Positions 2,826 through 34,093 of a stretch of DNA of 44,181 nucleotides are shown piece by piece. Source of the DNA: a virus; the IMG/VR virus record IMGVR_UViG_3300021475_000031, positions 1-44,181 of that record; one strand, 5' to 3'. Under the pieces are notes generated by a model, which was not told where the DNA came from, did no database searches, and was given only the letters and a program-made list of their open reading frames with translations. Both the position numbers and the translations under genes were made by a program. Each line of letters opens with the position of its first letter. Position 1 is the stretch's first letter.

Positions 2826-3091
2826 CCGCGAACCGAGAAGCGAGAGCGGCGGCGAAACTCGCCAAGCGCTGCTATCCGATCTTTGCCGGCCAGGAGGCGG
2901 AAATTCAGGGCGCGGCGCTCGTCGACCTGGTGGCGCGCCATCTCGCCGGCCATGTCGCGGTCGGCGACGAGGAGGCGACCGCCGCCATGCGCAAAATGCT
3001 GCTCGAGGCGTTCATCATCGCCGTCAAGCAATTGGTGCCGATCGTCGACGCGGCGGATATTCAACCCGAGCTCAGGCGCCGCATGCAATGA
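2822..3091 (+). CDS. Hypothetical helical protein, 89 residues
   Basis: GTG at 2822 overlaps the previous stop in a GTGA arrangement. The small protein is Ala-rich and helical, with alternating hydrophobic residues (ALVDLVARHLAGH, MLLEAFIIAVKQLVPI) and no membrane segment long enough to be certain. Its stop overlaps the ATG of the small-terminase-like gene at 3088. Function is unknown; the tight coupling suggests it is made together with that protein. Confidence 0.55.
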   Translation: MTANREARAAAKLAKRCYPIFAGQEAEIQGAALVDLVARHLAGHVAVGDEEATAAMRKMLLEAFIIAVKQLVPIVDAADIQPELRRRMQ

Positions 3092-3543
3092 GTGACGATT
3101 GGGCGACGCGCACCGCCGATAAGTACATTCCCCGCTTGGGTTGCGACAGCGAGGCGGATATCGCCCGCATGCTGGTGCGCATGCGCGGCAATGTCAGCGA
3201 CGCGGCCGACGAGCTCGGGATCGAAAGCGCCGAGCTCCGTCGCATGATCCAGAAATCCGAAACGCTCGCCGCCGTCATGGCCGAAGTGATGGAAAGAAAC
3301 GTCGACAAGGCGGTCGGGATCATCCGCGACGGCATGGACGAGGAAAGCTACCTCGTCCGCTTCTATGCCGCCAAAGAGTTTTTGCGCACAGAAACCGGGC
3401 GCCGGCGCGGCTTTGGCCAACCGCATCAAACCCAGGTGGTGGAGGGAAGCGGCGGCGGCCGCGCCGTCATCGTGCTCAAATGGCTCGACGATAGTACGCC
3501 AGAGCCCAAGACAATCGAACAAATCGAAGGTCCGCTCAAGTAA
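3088..3543 (+). CDS. Small-terminase-like HTH protein
   Basis: The 151-residue product has an HTH-like stretch (GNVSDAADELGIESAELRRM, about residues 34-53) followed by a helical region with ERNVDKAVGIIRDGM and a basic TGRRRGF. This arrangement is common in small terminase subunits and related DNA-binding phage proteins. It aligns along most of its length with the protein at 40195-40461, so the genome carries two paralogues. TerS normally lies next to TerL; here the large subunit is 4.4 kb away. That keeps the assignment tentative. Confidence 0.5.
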   Translation: MSDDWATRTADKYIPRLGCDSEADIARMLVRMRGNVSDAADELGIESAELRRMIQKSETLAAVMAEVMERNVDKAVGIIRDGMDEESYLVRFYAAKEFLRTETGRRRGFGQPHQTQVVEGSGGGRAVIVLKWLDDSTPEPKTIEQIEGPLK

Positions 3544-4153: not shown

Positions 4154-4723
4154 TCAAGCGAGCTCGGCGAGCCGGCGGCCGCGCCGCATGCCGACAAGCC
4201 CGATCAGGCCGAAGCCGGCAACCAGCATCGCCCACGTCGCCGGCTCGGGAACGCTCGAGGCGGTCACCGTGCCGTCGATCGCAATGTGGATCGGCGCCAG
4301 GCCTGAAATCCCCGACACTTCGGCGAAGTAAGCCCCGGCGTTGACAATGTCGGGCCCGAGCTCGGCGCTTTGGCCGCCGAGGAAGTTGCTCAGCGGCGTG
4401 CTGTCGATCACGGCCCCGATCGGTTGGAACGGCGACACCGGGGCGCTCGAGGTAAAGTGGTTGAGCGACAAGAGGCCCCCCGTGATCCGCTGCGATCCGG
4501 TCGCGCTATCCGAGACGGACAAGGTCACCGTCTCCTTGACCGGCAAGGTGAACTCGAAAAACTGCATGAACCCAATGCCCGAGCCGGGCGTGTCCTCGGC
4601 CGGAAGCGCCAGCGATTGGTTGAACACCGCGCCGATGTTCTCGACGGTGATTTGGGTCGCCGCGTAGGCGGGCGCGGCGAAGGCGGCGAGAGCGGCAAGG
4701 GTGGCGAGAGTCAGCTTGTGCAT
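4154..4723 (-). CDS. Secreted PEP-CTERM protein (cargo)
   Basis: The 189-residue product begins with a signal peptide (MHKLTLATLAALAAFAAPAYA, cleavage near residue 21). A beta-rich ectodomain follows, and it ends with a PEPxxWA-type sorting signal: VPEPATWAML at about 158-167, a hydrophobic segment LVAGFGLIGLVGM, and the basic MRRGRR. In bacteria such proteins are exported by Sec, processed at PEP by an exosortase/archaeosortase-type enzyme, and released or attached to exopolysaccharide. No exosortase is encoded here, so the host would have to supply it. A GGGG-type ribosome site lies 7 nt upstream and its own promoter at 4751-4780. This looks like a lysogenic-conversion (moron) gene; the biological role is unknown. 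Confidence 0.85.
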   Translation of the reverse strand: MHKLTLATLAALAAFAAPAYAATQITVENIGAVFNQSLALPAEDTPGSGIGFMQFFEFTLPVKETVTLSVSDSATGSQRITGGLLSLNHFTSSAPVSPFQPIGAVIDSTPLSNFLGGQSAELGPDIVNAGAYFAEVSGISGLAPIHIAIDGTVTASSVPEPATWAMLVAGFGLIGLVGMRRGRRLAELA

Positions 4724-4750: not shown

Positions 4751-4780
4751 AATCTACGCACGACGCGATGACGAGGGCAA
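4751..4780 (-). promoter_or_regulatory. Promoter for the PEP-CTERM gene
   Basis: Read on the minus strand, TTGCCC (4775-4780), an 18-bp spacer and TAGATT (4751-4756) form a plausible sigma-70 promoter 28 bp before the start codon. It lies immediately downstream of a hairpin that would stop transcription from the preceding minus-strand gene, giving the cargo gene an autonomous unit. Confidence 0.45.
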
Positions 4781-4786
4781 GACGTG

Positions 4787-4814
4787 AGAAAGGCCCCGCG
4801 AAGGGGCCCTTCAA
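4787..4814 (-). terminator. GC-rich hairpin between two minus-strand genes
   Basis: GGCCCC (4792-4797) and GGGGCC (4803-4808) form a perfect 6-bp stem with a five-base loop, followed on the minus strand by TTTCTC. It lies just past the stop of the Pro/Gly-rich gene. The T tract is short, so termination may be incomplete. Confidence 0.5.
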
Positions 4815-4853: not shown

Positions 4854-5426
4854 CTATTGCGGCGCGGGGTGCGGCCCTTGCGCGACCGCGACTTTCCAAG
4901 CCTGCTCGTCGGGCTTCCAAACCGCGACCACGATTTGGTCGGCGATATCAGCCGGCGGCGGCGGGAGCTCCTCGCCGGCCGGCGGAACCCAAGGCTGCGC
5001 CGGGCCAAGATCGCCGAGCTCGGGAATGCCAAAGCCAGGATCGACCGGGCGCCCAGGCCGCACCGGGCCCGTGCTCGGATATTCGGGGTTCCAAGAGCCG
5101 GGCGGGCGGTTGCCGACATGCGGCGGGCGCCCTTCCCAACCATAGCCAGGGTCGACCGGCCGGCCAGGCCGCACCGGCCCTTGGCTCGGATAGTCTGGAG
5201 GGCTCCACGAGCCAGGCGGCCGATTGCCGACATGCGGCGGGCGGCCGGGCAAGCCCTGGTCGGGGTAGGGCGGATCAGTTTCGGGGCCGCCGGGCAAACC
5301 CTGGTCGGGATAGCCGCCGCCGCCGGGGCGGCCGGGCCAGGGCAAGCCCTGGCCGGGCCAGGGCAAGCCCTGATCGGGTCGGCCGCCGCCTAGCGGGATA
5401 ATCACAGCATAAAACGGTTCTGGCAT
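4854..5426 (-). CDS. Pro/Gly-rich repeat protein
   Basis: ATG at 5426 follows AGGAG by 8 nt. The 190-residue protein opens MPEPFYAVIIPLGGG and continues with PDQGLP/WPGQGLP repeats. It then carries two copies of a roughly 40-residue unit containing GRPPHVGNRPPGSW and GPVRPGRPVDPG, and ends in a more ordinary domain (ADQIVVAVWKPDEQAWKVAVAQ). The repeats are also visible as DNA direct repeats. Similar Pro/Gly-rich proteins seem common near structural genes of Rhizobiales podoviruses (recollection, not checked). A virion or adhesion role is a guess. Confidence 0.6.
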   Translation of the reverse strand: MPEPFYAVIIPLGGGRPDQGLPWPGQGLPWPGRPGGGGYPDQGLPGGPETDPPYPDQGLPGRPPHVGNRPPGSWSPPDYPSQGPVRPGRPVDPGYGWEGRPPHVGNRPPGSWNPEYPSTGPVRPGRPVDPGFGIPELGDLGPAQPWVPPAGEELPPPPADIADQIVVAVWKPDEQAWKVAVAQGPHPAPQ

Positions 5427-5507
5427 GGTGCGCTCCTGCGAAAGGCCTTTCGGGAAGGCGGAATGAGCCTCGCACGTGGCCACGACGCGAACAAGACATC
5501 GTCACAA

Positions 5508-5626: not shown

Positions 5627-7954
5627 ATGCTCGAGCGCATCTTTTCCACTTTCAAAGAGGGCGGACCGGCCGGCGACAATTACGATCCGTCCGACCCCGA
5701 CAGTTACGAGCCGTACATTCAGACCCTCATTCGCGACAGCCGCGACTATGAGGGCTCTGTCCTGGCGGCCAAGCGCAACGAGGCGCAGCTTTATTACTAC
5801 GGCTATCTGCCGTCGTTATACCCCGACGGCACGCCCTACAGCGACATCCAAATCATCCAAGACCCGAACGCCACTTACGAGCAAATCCTCGGCCACGACA
5901 AGGAAACCCCCAACAAATCGAGCTACGTCTCGACCGACGTCCGCGACGCCATCATGCTCATGCTGCCGTCGCTCATCCGCCTGTTCGCCTCGAGCGAAAA
6001 CGTCGTCTCGCTCATTCCCCGCACCCAAGCCGACGTCGACGCCGCGCAACAGCAAACCAATTATATCAATTACGTTTTTTGGCAGGACAACCCCGGCTTT
6101 TTGATCCTTTACGGGGCGTTCAAAGACGCCATGACCGTGCGCACCGGGTTCGTGAAATGGTGGACCGACGACGTCAAAGAAAAGAAGCGCAAGACCTTCA
6201 TCAACCTCAACCCGCAACAGCTATCGCTCATCGCCCAAGCCGACCCGACCGCCAAGCTTGTCGAGCATGAGGACCCCGACCCGGCGACCGGCCTATTCCC
6301 GCGCGTCGTGCTCGAGTTTGAAGTCGACAAGCCGATCATCAAAGTCGCCGGCGTGCCGCCCGAGGAAATGCGCCTCGATCGCTTTGCGCGATCGTTCTCA
6401 ACCTCGAGGATCGTCGGCCATGAGAGGATCGTGCCGATCGATGAAATGGTCGCCATGGGCTACGACCGCGAGCTCTGCCTCGACTATCTGCAGGGCCAGG
6501 CGACCAACGAATTCACCATGGAGGCCCAACTCCGCAACCCCGGCCGCTATTCCGGCACGCGCATGGGCGACGGCGTCCTCTATGGCGAGTGGTACATCAA
6601 GGTTGACGGCGACGGCGACGGGATCGCCGAGCTCCGCTACATCTGCACCATGGGCGACGACTATCATATCGTCCACGACGAGACGGCCAATCGGGTAAAA
6701 TTCGCCGTCTTTGGCGTCGATCCGATCAGCCATACGATCGTCGGCGACTCGATCGCCGATTACACCAAAGACATTCAGAAGATCAAAACCAACATGACCC
6801 GCGCCGTGCTGGACAGCGCGGCCGAAAGCATCAACCCGAAAACTGTGGTCAACGAGCTCAACACCGACCTCGACGACGTCCTTAACGATGACGTCGGCGC
6901 CGTGATCCGCACGCGCGGCGACGTCAACAACGCCGTCGCCTTCAACAACGTGCCGTTTCTCGGCCAGCAAATGCTGCCGTTGTTCGAGCTCATGAACGAC
7001 ATTTTCCAGCGCCGCACCGGCTTGAGCGACGCCGCCAAAGGCCTCGATCCGAAGGCGCTGCAGAGCTCGACCTCGATCGGCGTCGAGGCGATCATCAACG
7101 GCGCGCAAGAGCGGACCGAGCTCGTCGCCCGGGTGCTCGCCGAAACCGGCTTTAAGGATTTGTTTACCGGCCTCTACAACGAGGTTTGCGAGGCCCCGAA
7201 CCAGCGCCGAACGCTGCGCATCAATGGCAAGTGGACCGATATCGACACGTCGACTTTCGACGCGTCCATGGGCGTTGAAGTCAACTCGACGCTCGGCAAG
7301 GGGTCGGACACCGTTCGGCTCATGACCCTCAACCAGATCAAGCAAGATCAACAGATGATTATGCAGCAATTCGGGGTCACCAACCCGGTTTGCGGCATCA
7401 CCGAATATTTGAACACGATTTCGGACATGCTCGATATCGCCAACATCAAAAACGTCGGCCGCTACTTCAAGACGCCAAGCCCGCAAGTCATGCAGGCGAT
7501 CGCCAACCAGCCGAAAGAACCGGACGCGATGACGCTCGCCGCCCAGGCGCAATATCAAAAGGTTAAGTCCGACACCGCGACCGCCGTCGGCCAACTGCAA
7601 CAGGCCCAAGCGAAGCAAGCGGCCGACGACGATTTCCGCCGCCAGCAATTGGCGGAAAAGACCGTCAACGACCGGGCGAAAATCCAACTCGAGGCGCAAA
7701 AGCTTCACGTCAGCCATGTCGAGAACATCGGCCGGATGGCGGCCGATATGTGGGGCTCGCAAATGGACGCCAGCGCTCAGCATCACCAAGCGCTGCAGGA
7801 CGCCGCCGTCGGCCATCACCAGGCGATGCAAGACGCGGCCGTCGGCCATCATCAAGCCTTTGTCGACGCGGCGATAGGCCATCACCAGGCCAACGCCGAC
7901 GTTGAAGCCGCGCAAATCCAGGCCGACGCGCAACCGTCCGATAGCGGTTCATGA
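5627..7954 (+). CDS. Portal protein (P22-type)
   Basis: This 775-residue protein has the length and layout of P22-like portals, the dodecameric ring through which DNA enters and leaves the capsid. A characteristic region reads TNYINYVFWQDNPGFLILYGAFKDA split over about residues 145-170, followed by GFVKWW. The C-terminal third is helical (the barrel), with Gln/Ala-rich coils and four tandem 11-residue repeats (HHQAxxDAAVG) at residues 719-762. The start ATG follows GGCGGAAG. The last four bases overlap the terminase start, so portal and terminase are translationally coupled. Confidence 0.88.
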   Translation: MLERIFSTFKEGGPAGDNYDPSDPDSYEPYIQTLIRDSRDYEGSVLAAKRNEAQLYYYGYLPSLYPDGTPYSDIQIIQDPNATYEQILGHDKETPNKSSYVSTDVRDAIMLMLPSLIRLFASSENVVSLIPRTQADVDAAQQQTNYINYVFWQDNPGFLILYGAFKDAMTVRTGFVKWWTDDVKEKKRKTFINLNPQQLSLIAQADPTAKLVEHEDPDPATGLFPRVVLEFEVDKPIIKVAGVPPEEMRLDRFARSFSTSRIVGHERIVPIDEMVAMGYDRELCLDYLQGQATNEFTMEAQLRNPGRYSGTRMGDGVLYGEWYIKVDGDGDGIAELRYICTMGDDYHIVHDETANRVKFAVFGVDPISHTIVGDSIADYTKDIQKIKTNMTRAVLDSAAESINPKTVVNELNTDLDDVLNDDVGAVIRTRGDVNNAVAFNNVPFLGQQMLPLFELMNDIFQRRTGLSDAAKGLDPKALQSSTSIGVEAIINGAQERTELVARVLAETGFKDLFTGLYNEVCEAPNQRRTLRINGKWTDIDTSTFDASMGVEVNSTLGKGSDTVRLMTLNQIKQDQQMIMQQFGVTNPVCGITEYLNTISDMLDIANIKNVGRYFKTPSPQVMQAIANQPKEPDAMTLAAQAQYQKVKSDTATAVGQLQQAQAKQAADDDFRRQQLAEKTVNDRAKIQLEAQKLHVSHVENIGRMAADMWGSQMDASAQHHQALQDAAVGHHQAMQDAAVGHHQAFVDAAIGHHQANADVEAAQIQADAQPSDSGS
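7781..7912 (+). repeat. Four tandem 33-bp repeats in the portal gene
   Basis: Units begin at 7781, 7814, 7847 and 7880, each encoding HHQA plus seven residues, mostly DAAVG or DAAIG at the end. They extend the predicted C-terminal helix of the portal barrel in 11-residue steps, the pitch of a three-turn helix. Copy number could vary between relatives. Confidence 0.9.
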
Positions 7955-28447: not shown

Positions 28448-28523
28448 CACGTGCGACGCTGTTTTTTGTCCACATCCTGTCCACATCGTGGAACCCCTAG
28501 AGAAACAAGGCAGAACCAAAAAA

Positions 28524-29738
28524 ATGAAACCGCTCACTCAGAAGATCGTTGACGCCACGCCCGCGCCGAAAACCGGCTTCAAGGAATTGCGCGAGCGCGG
28601 CCTCGTGCTCCGCATTTCGGCGACCGGCGCCAAGTCGTGGTCGTTTGAATTTCGATCGCCGCTCACCAAGAAACACGCGCGCATTTCGTTTCCGGCGACG
28701 TCGCTCGCCAACGCGCGCGATATCGTTCACCGCCATCGTGTCGCGCTCAGCGAAGGCAAAGACCCGAGCGTCGAAAAGCGGGAGGCGGTTGTTGCGCTGC
28801 GCGCCGAGCATGCGCGGCAAACGACCGTGCGCGCCTCGCTCGATATGTACGAGCCGGGCTTCCTCGCCGATGCGCCGCTCAAGCAAGCCTCGCGGCTCGA
28901 TCGCATGCACCGTTTGAGGCGTATCCTCGCGCCGCTCATGGAGCGCGCCGTGTCGTCGATTTCGCAGCCCGAAATCGTCCGCTTCCTCGACGCCGTTCGA
29001 ACCAATAGCGGGCCGATCGCCGCCAACCGCGCGCACGCGGAAATTCGCGCTTGGCTCGGTTGGGCGAAACTCCGCGAGCATGCGCCCGACAACGTGCTCG
29101 ATCGCGTGCCTAAGCAAGTGAGCGAGAAGAGCCGCGAGCGCGCCCGGGTGCTGACCGACGCCGAGCTCGCCGCGATGATGAGCGGCACGACCGACGGCTC
29201 GACATTTTCCGACTTCATGCGCGTGCTGTTGCATACCGCGATGCGCCGCGATGAAGGCGCGAGCATGCAGCCGAATTGGCTCGACTTCGAAGCGCGCACG
29301 ATCACAATCCCGGCGGTCGTGTCCAAGACTGCCCGCGCGCGCACAATCCCGATGGCCGAGGCGATTGCGCCGATGCTCGAGGCGCGCGTCGAAGGCCTCC
29401 CGCCGGTCGGTTATATCTTCGGCGAGGGCTCGGGCTTCCGCGCGCCCTTGCAAGGTTGGGACAAGCAAACCACGCGACTGCGCGCCGCCATGCCGGCCGG
29501 CGATCGTTGGACGTTGCACGATATCCGCCGCACCGTTGCGACGCGCATGCACCAGGCGAGAGTCCATCCGTTGGTCGTTGAGGATTTGCTCGGCCATTTA
29601 ACGGGCGTCCGCAAGGGCGTGGCCGGCGTCTACAACCAGGCCGAGACTGTTGAGGATCAAAGGCTCGCGCTCGCCGATTGGGCGGCCAAGCTGGCGTCGT
29701 TTACGAACGTCGTCGCGTTCAAGCGGGCGGCGGCTTAA
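28524..29738 (+). CDS. int: Tyrosine integrase
   Basis: The 404-residue protein carries all catalytic residues of tyrosine recombinases: Arg241 (HTAMRRDE), Lys268 (SKTARARTIP), His332 and Arg335 (LHDIRRT), His358 (LLGHLTG) and Tyr370 (VAGVYNQ). The N-terminal arm-binding domain starts KPLTQKIVDATPAP and has RGLVLRISATGAKSW, the DUF4102-type pattern of tRNA-targeting integrases. ATG at 28524 is favoured over GTG at 28488, which adds 12 unlikely residues. It acts on the adjacent attP core and converges with the excisionase-like gene, overlapping it by 20 bp. Confidence 0.92.
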   Translation: MKPLTQKIVDATPAPKTGFKELRERGLVLRISATGAKSWSFEFRSPLTKKHARISFPATSLANARDIVHRHRVALSEGKDPSVEKREAVVALRAEHARQTTVRASLDMYEPGFLADAPLKQASRLDRMHRLRRILAPLMERAVSSISQPEIVRFLDAVRTNSGPIAANRAHAEIRAWLGWAKLREHAPDNVLDRVPKQVSEKSRERARVLTDAELAAMMSGTTDGSTFSDFMRVLLHTAMRRDEGASMQPNWLDFEARTITIPAVVSKTARARTIPMAEAIAPMLEARVEGLPPVGYIFGEGSGFRAPLQGWDKQTTRLRAAMPAGDRWTLHDIRRTVATRMHQARVHPLVVEDLLGHLTGVRKGVAGVYNQAETVEDQRLALADWAAKLASFTNVVAFKRAAA

Positions 29739-33238: not shown

Positions 33239-34093
33239 TCATCCTGTTCGGTAGACCGCGCCGATATGCCGGGCGAGCGGCAGGGGAATTTTGGCGATCA
33301 TCGCACTCGCCATCTTGCGGCGCGGCGATGCTGACGGGAGGGCAGCGGGTCCGGTGTCAAACCACACGGCCCCGCTGCCGTGATGCTTCACTCCCTCGCC
33401 ATGCTCGCCGGGGTTGGTCAGATGCTTTGTATGCGGGTGCCCATCGCGCCGATTTAGATGAGCAGCAATCTTGCGGCCGTCGGGGTTCATGCCCTTGCCG
33501 CTCGTCGTATTGTGCGCGACGTTGAACCATGAGCCGCCGTTGTTCTTTCGAGCGTGATGATCGCGCCATCCTTCATTTGCAAAGCCAGTCCACCCGATGC
33601 CGGGAACGTTAGCGCCGCAGCCATCGGCTTTCGCCGCCTTGAGCGTGATCGGCATGAGCGCCGGCACGTCTCCCCACAGATAGAACGAGCCGAAATTCCA
33701 ACGCGCACGGCCGACCCATTTCTGCGCCCCGCGCACGTTCTCAACGATCAGCGGGACATGCCGGCCCGCCGCCTCGCACGCCTCGCGCTGGATGCGGAAA
33801 CACGTCTCGAATAGTTCATTGTCGGGCGGCGGCAGCGCCCTCGCGCGCGTCCACGGCATGGCGCGGTAGCTGTAGGCCTGGCAGGGTGGCGAGGCGACGA
33901 TCAGCGCAGCGTCCTTGAATTGCGAGCCGTGCAGCGTGCGCACGTCCTGAACGACCAGTTGCGCCGGGTAGCGGTGCTCGCCGTATTCATGGCGCTCAAT
34001 GTCGAAGCCGATCACTTCATAGCCCTCGGCCATCAGGCCCTCGGTCCAGCCGCCGAGGCCGCAAAAGAGATCGATCGCCAGCGGACCGCTCAC
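33239..34093 (-). CDS. C5 cytosine DNA methyltransferase
   Basis: The 284-residue enzyme shows motif I (AIDLFCGLGG, residues 6-15), motif II-like IGFDIE, the catalytic motif IV ASPPCQAYS (Cys71) and motif VI VPLIVENVRG (Glu118). A region rich in His, Gly and Asn and a closing SPRRKMASAMIAKIPLPLARHI stand for the target-recognition and motif IX-X part. No restriction partner is visible, so it is an orphan phage methyltransferase, probably protecting phage DNA or altering host expression. It overlaps the ERF gene stop. Confidence 0.88.
   Translation of the reverse strand: MSGPLAIDLFCGLGGWTEGLMAEGYEVIGFDIERHEYGEHRYPAQLVVQDVRTLHGSQFKDAALIVASPPCQAYSYRAMPWTRARALPPPDNELFETCFRIQREACEAAGRHVPLIVENVRGAQKWVGRARWNFGSFYLWGDVPALMPITLKAAKADGCGANVPGIGWTGFANEGWRDHHARKNNGGSWFNVAHNTTSGKGMNPDGRKIAAHLNRRDGHPHTKHLTNPGEHGEGVKHHGSGAVWFDTGPAALPSASPRRKMASAMIAKIPLPLARHIGAVYRTG

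Follow-up and report, generated by a model that had tools for sequence, protein, structure and literature searches.

The PEP-CTERM/exosortase pathway has been described as cellular machinery tied to exopolysaccharide (EPS), and most of its substrates are without an assigned role. Closest to the gene described here are the FxDxF PEP-CTERM proteins (NF038126) and their exosortase (EpsH/Xrt), whose substrates likewise have a signal peptide, a beta-rich ectodomain and a PEPxxWA tail. Phage morons, or lysogenic-conversion genes, resemble it as accessory genes that lie between essential genes, often with a promoter or terminators of their own. Superinfection-exclusion envelope proteins such as SieA of P22 (PMC10883804) would offer an analogy, as phage-encoded proteins of the host envelope that are expected to alter exposure to phages.

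The phage genes that we describe differ from all of these. In contrast to the cellular FxDxF/exosortase system, the phage versions are carried by phages that lack an exosortase and form a separate, distant clade. Whereas most proteobacterial PEP-CTERM genes have a sigma-54 site upstream (PMC1569441), no strict sigma-54 consensus was found upstream of the family genes (there was one loose match, at locus L154), and one phage group, D, has consensus sigma-70 promoters, unlike the cellular genes. The PEP motif, described as near-invariant in cells (PMC1569441), is relaxed at its third residue in roughly one in four phage members. Unlike morons, the phage genes swap their ectodomains in frame while the export and sorting signals stay in place; some are found in contigs that have no integrase, and those of groups C and E stand among structural genes. 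Unlike SieA, the phage PEP-CTERM proteins, whose role in exclusion is putative, would depend on exosortase for their C-terminal sorting and would have modular ectodomains. A literature search, with most subscription journals outside its scope, found no earlier description of phage-borne PEP-CTERM cargo; to our knowledge, the phage as carrier and the exchange of ectodomains are new, whereas the protein class itself is known.

The window, by which we mean the whole stretch of DNA that was analysed, is a 44,181-bp IMG/VR record with genes for the small terminase subunit (terS), portal, large terminase subunit (terL), scaffold, major capsid protein (MCP), integrase, Erf, a RecE-like exonuclease and a repressor. 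It is a temperate podovirus-like phage, presumably from soil, and its PEP-CTERM gene is placed between terS and portal (Table 1). The Pro/Gly-rich protein encoded upstream, which probably starts at the ATG at 5426, matched no Pfam or PHROG family, and its gene is a frequent, not obligatory, neighbour of the PEP-CTERM cargo: in groups A and D it adjoins the cargo, and in other phages it is placed elsewhere. The window also encodes a phage DNA methyltransferase (33239–34093, minus strand) between the RecE-like exonuclease and Erf genes.

Table 1. Features of the cargo slot and its surroundings in the window phage.
Feature	Position	Strand	Remarks
Terminase small subunit, one slot flank	3088..3543	+	phrog_2538
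PEP-CTERM protein gene, FxDxF family, type 1 ectodomain	4154..4723	-	189 aa
PEPxxWA-CTERM sorting signal	4157..4252	-	residues 158-189: VPEPATWAM, hydrophobic span, MRRGRR
Ectodomain	4253..4657	-	residues 23-157; predicted beta-sandwich; invariant residues; family dN/dS 0.26
Signal peptide part	4658..4723	-	residues 1-22, MHKLTLATLAALAAFAAPAYAA; hydrophobic peak at residue 4; kept between ectodomain-swapping phages
Promoter-like block before PEP-CTERM gene	4757..4782	-	conserved; plausible only
GC-rich hairpin upstream of PEP-CTERM gene	4788..4812	-	conserved in group A phages
Pro/Gly-rich repeat protein upstream of PEP-CTERM gene	4854..5483	-	PDQGLPG repeats
Second promoter-like block copy, before Pro/Gly-rich gene	5471..5496	-	weak on its own
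Portal protein, other slot flank	5627..7954	+	phrog_1216, E 2e-114
Tyrosine integrase	28488..29738	+	phrog_1, PF00589; phage temperate

Judged by its sequence, the product of this gene is a PEP-CTERM protein. The reading frame is strongly coding (position-specific GC 0.62/0.52/0.87). The C terminus matches PF07589 of Pfam (30.4 bits; cut-off 20.7) and NF035944 of NCBIfam (38.5 bits; cut-off 35), and residues 8–181 match the FxDxF model NF038126 of NCBIfam (58.7 bits; cut-off 50), a cut-off under which several sisters of the protein fall (27.7–40.6). Only one open reading frame of the window has the tripartite C-terminal signal, which never appeared in 100 Markov-1 genomes matched in size. A hydropathy test places the two most hydrophobic 19-mers at residues 4 and 161, where they fit a signal peptide and a C-terminal transmembrane segment; the same test found no transmembrane segment between the two, and the protein contains no cysteine. 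An AF2 model (mean pLDDT 66) agrees with a beta-rich ectodomain. The three elements claimed in the sequence-only reading (signal peptide, beta-rich ectodomain, complete PEPxxWA signal) are all borne out by translation, hydropathy, the AF2 model and the CTERM models; the search with PEP-CTERM models that it had suggested passed every cut-off. Structure matches of the ectodomain models were weak (TM 0.2–0.4, to carbohydrate-binding modules and other beta-sandwiches), and we drew no fold identity from them. No PHROG match was found for the protein or its ectodomain at E up to 1; it thus has no match to a structural PHROG, which would mark a virion structural protein, and has export and sorting signals.

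Two scans of IMG/VR yielded 43 close relatives (54–100% identity, nearly all 54–76%), all of them in phage-contig loci with portal, terminase, MCP, integrase or DNA polymerase genes as neighbours; named phages gave no match to type 1, the ectodomain of the window protein, or to type 2, a second ectodomain introduced below. The earlier idea of a phage-borne accessory cargo with an exosortase-type signal is upheld by these relatives, with CTERM models over cut-off. It also withstands comparison with structural proteins, because the C-terminal signal is present in every close relative whose C terminus is covered and the ectodomain has no PHROG match. The third motif residue is not proline in 10 of 37 distinct relatives (PEA, PEL, PET or PEI). 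The full-length alignment of 27 sequences has 51 invariant positions, and the ectodomain has a dN/dS of 0.26 (median of 744 pairs); the type 1 ectodomain is under purifying selection.

The family occupies at least eight genomic contexts. The gene lies between portal and terS on the opposite strand, the arrangement of the window (A), faces the integrase (B), lies between portal and MCP on the late strand (C), precedes the DNA polymerase (D), lies between fibre and terL (E), is upstream of another terL family (F), lies between terS and terL (G) or is beside a helicase (H), and a few further contexts exist. The gene tree clusters by context but requires 13 label changes against a minimum of 9, so contexts are not strictly sorted by the tree. 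A small membrane protein of 56–59 aa, with two hydrophobic segments flanking a Tyr/Gly-rich middle, is encoded at L006 (2060–2233), L008 (9753–9932), L145 (3455–3625) and L134 (1087–1266); in group E its gene immediately precedes the PEP-CTERM gene, and in L134 it lies elsewhere. One 52-kb contig (IMGVR_UViG_3300021475_000019; loci L146 and L153) contains two versions of an integrase and PEP-CTERM region. We rejected tandem prophages as the explanation, as the versions are about 80–91% identical and share a 127-bp identical overlap, which suggests assembly through two strain variants.

Cellular relatives were sought with the ectodomain profile in some 1,580 genomes, a total that includes repeat visits, sampled from the order and family of a Bradyrhizobium (397 and 392), the family of a Rhodoblastus (199), the order of a Phenylobacterium (200) and at class level (385). 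No close cellular copy was found in this sample. The only match was a remote one (L168), an FxDxF protein of 'Rhizobiales bacterium 65-9' that is encoded directly upstream of an exosortase gene; this exosortase is XrtV-like and over the cut-off of the generic exosortase model, and a sugar-nucleotide transferase gene is nearby. A contig scan of cellular genomes gave, among the matches listed, C-terminal or distant matches, and an MCP search in 289 genomes gave a best match of 43%. No exosortase gene was found in the 31 phage records searched.

In a sister phage (L031), the slot of the window is filled by a PEP-CTERM protein with an unrelated ectodomain. A survey of relatives of the portal found nine such proteins, which we term type 2, and a scan for them returned 79 type 2-like loci, mostly full-length matches, representing 64 distinct proteins after clustering. 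BLAST detected no similarity between type 1 and type 2 ectodomains at E below 0.01, and none between a third type and type 1; type 1 and type 2 both model as beta-rich folds. Four of the slots (A, B, D and E) were found with type 2 and slot C with type 3, and the genes beside them encode products up to 97–100% identical to those beside type 1. More than 100 related phage contigs share the PEP-CTERM tag and differ in the domain that it would display.

Where the exchange begins and ends was read from a cross-type comparison of DNA in 11 phage pairs over slots B, C and E; because pairs share members, these are not 11 events, although the three slots are independent. Upstream homology ends 37–60 nt inside the gene, in the signal peptide, in 8 of the 11 pairs and about 49 nt before the gene in the other 3. 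In all 11, homology returns close to the PEP codon (no more than 11 nt away), 93–113 nt from the end of the gene; the CTERM part and stop codon measure 93–102 nt. The flanking DNA of slot C is 79–91% identical, and the aligned DNA runs more than 1.5 kb into the downstream region. Tails are slot-specific, as with LAWAGLRRGKxxRFA in slot B under both types, and part of the tail similarity may reflect functional constraint. Because homology breaks off in or before the signal peptide and resumes close to the PEP codon, we conclude that the ectodomain has been replaced in frame, with the export and sorting signals on either side kept. Six loci (L285, L288, L289, L290, L313 and L315) have a type 2 gene plus a second PEP-CTERM gene with an ectodomain of another cluster, and PEP-CTERM proteins with yet other ectodomains are encoded near large or tail genes at L016, L037, L038, L039, L042 and L046. 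As other viral contigs carry further ectodomains, with the context seen for a few, the PEP-CTERM habit of phages may be wider.

The gene had also been proposed to form an autonomous unit opposite to the late operon, with an upstream hairpin (4787–4814) and promoter (4751–4780). The hairpin is real at the span given in Table 1 (fold z −2.4); eight group A phages share it, and two of its positions show paired changes. Its T-run in the window is weak and it is absent from the terminator-scan list; it is probably the terminator of the Pro/Gly-rich gene. For the promoter, no sigma-70 consensus was matched at the proposed site (best 8/12), but an alignable block (TCTTGC..GTCA..CGTGCGTAAAT) is present at the promoter-like site in eight phages, and a window promoter upstream of the PEP-CTERM gene is plausible on these grounds. 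Three matches to the block occur in the window against 1.0 expected. Autonomy is clearer in other groups: in most group B members the gene is flanked, on at least one side, by a GC-rich terminator, and in group D the gene is preceded by TTGACA-17-TATAAT promoters with 11–12 of 12 matches. Strong terminators were found upstream of 10 of 42 family members and 13 of 514 other genes at these loci, and downstream of 10 of 42 and 16 of 514, and promoters with 11–12 of 12 matches before 5 of 42 and 6 of 514, counts that are not independent because the groups consist of related sequences. An own transcription unit is thus supported in groups A (by the hairpin, the promoter being only plausible), B and D, and the promoter and terminator scan recognised none in groups C, E, F and G. 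The orientation opposite to the late operon holds for the phage group of the window but not for all relatives, as the genes of groups C and E lie among structural genes and on their strand, in late operons.

The in-frame exchange makes exosortase-dependent display the best reading of the family. The phage accessory protein would be exported through its signal peptide, and its PEP-CTERM tail would hand it to the host exosortase; in the established pathway the signal peptide is cleaved and the exosortase is then thought to act at the PEP motif (PMC1569441; PMC11980579). The exosortase would anchor or release the beta-sandwich domain at the surface of the infected cell or in exopolysaccharide. 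Soil phages of several backbones would keep the slot and swap the displayed domain between signal peptide and sorting tail, and because the tag is kept while this domain is exchanged, phages appear to redecorate infected cells through the host exosortase. The benefit would most likely be a changed surface to which competing phages adsorb, or through which they inject, poorly; we propose such superinfection exclusion for lysogens and integrase-less phages alike. To the reading as a whole, an exported phage cargo that is sorted by the host exosortase and whose ectodomain alters the infected-cell surface against rival phages, we assign a probability of roughly 0.6. More tentative, and a little short of an even chance, is the modular form of this proposal, in which signal peptide and exosortase tail make up a slot for recombined, unrelated ectodomains that serve phage-versus-phage exclusion.

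The gene had at first been taken for a lysogenic-conversion gene. One that helps the lysogen through EPS binding, aggregation or biofilm, with no part in phage competition, would suit the window phage and group B, which are temperate by their integrases; the group B genes are neighbours of the integrase and are flanked by terminators, and a cellular PEP-CTERM protein, PepA, promotes flocculation (PMC9850573). The label may fit the window phage and is too narrow for the family. Neither a tyrosine integrase nor a serine recombinase was present in five near-complete contigs, from group C (43.7 kb), group D (44.0 and 44.8 kb), group H (76.8 kb) and L162 (43.3 kb); the nearest match to the group D polymerase (57.5%) belongs to a virulent Ochrobactrum phage (PMC7139368); and in groups C and E the gene is part of late operons. 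Recurrent ectodomain exchange is also more like an arms race, and we regard lysogen benefit as unlikely, if with an appreciable chance of being right. The late position of the group C and E genes, with no recognised unit of their own, would suit an envelope protein that changes the surface or matrix of the dying cell so that progeny escape from debris or EPS; units of their own are seen in groups B and D, and the near-perfect sigma-70 promoters of group D suit early or constitutive expression, which leaves such a late role improbable. Retention of the tail while the ectodomain is replaced could also come from a decoy, with which the phage saturates the host exosortase and suppresses sorting of host surface proteins, only the tail being of consequence. 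Strong conservation of the type 1 ectodomain, needless for a pure decoy, disfavours this, and we hold it to be very unlikely. PEP-CTERM genes are common in some Alphaproteobacteria, among the matches listed, so that an ordinary bacterial gene might have been picked up by chance or joined by contig mis-assembly; this is scarcely credible given that there are 43 loci, that fixed slots between structural genes of phages recur, that selection is purifying and that no close copies were found in the sampled genomes.

Phage-borne PEP-CTERM cargo has consequences for annotation, in that PEP-CTERM genes in viral contigs should stay and not be trimmed as host contamination. The natural ectodomain-swap variants are testable exosortase substrates. 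With such substrates in phages of several lineages, and with precise exchange of the domain between their two signals, the host surface would be a battleground that phages reach through the exosortase pathway.
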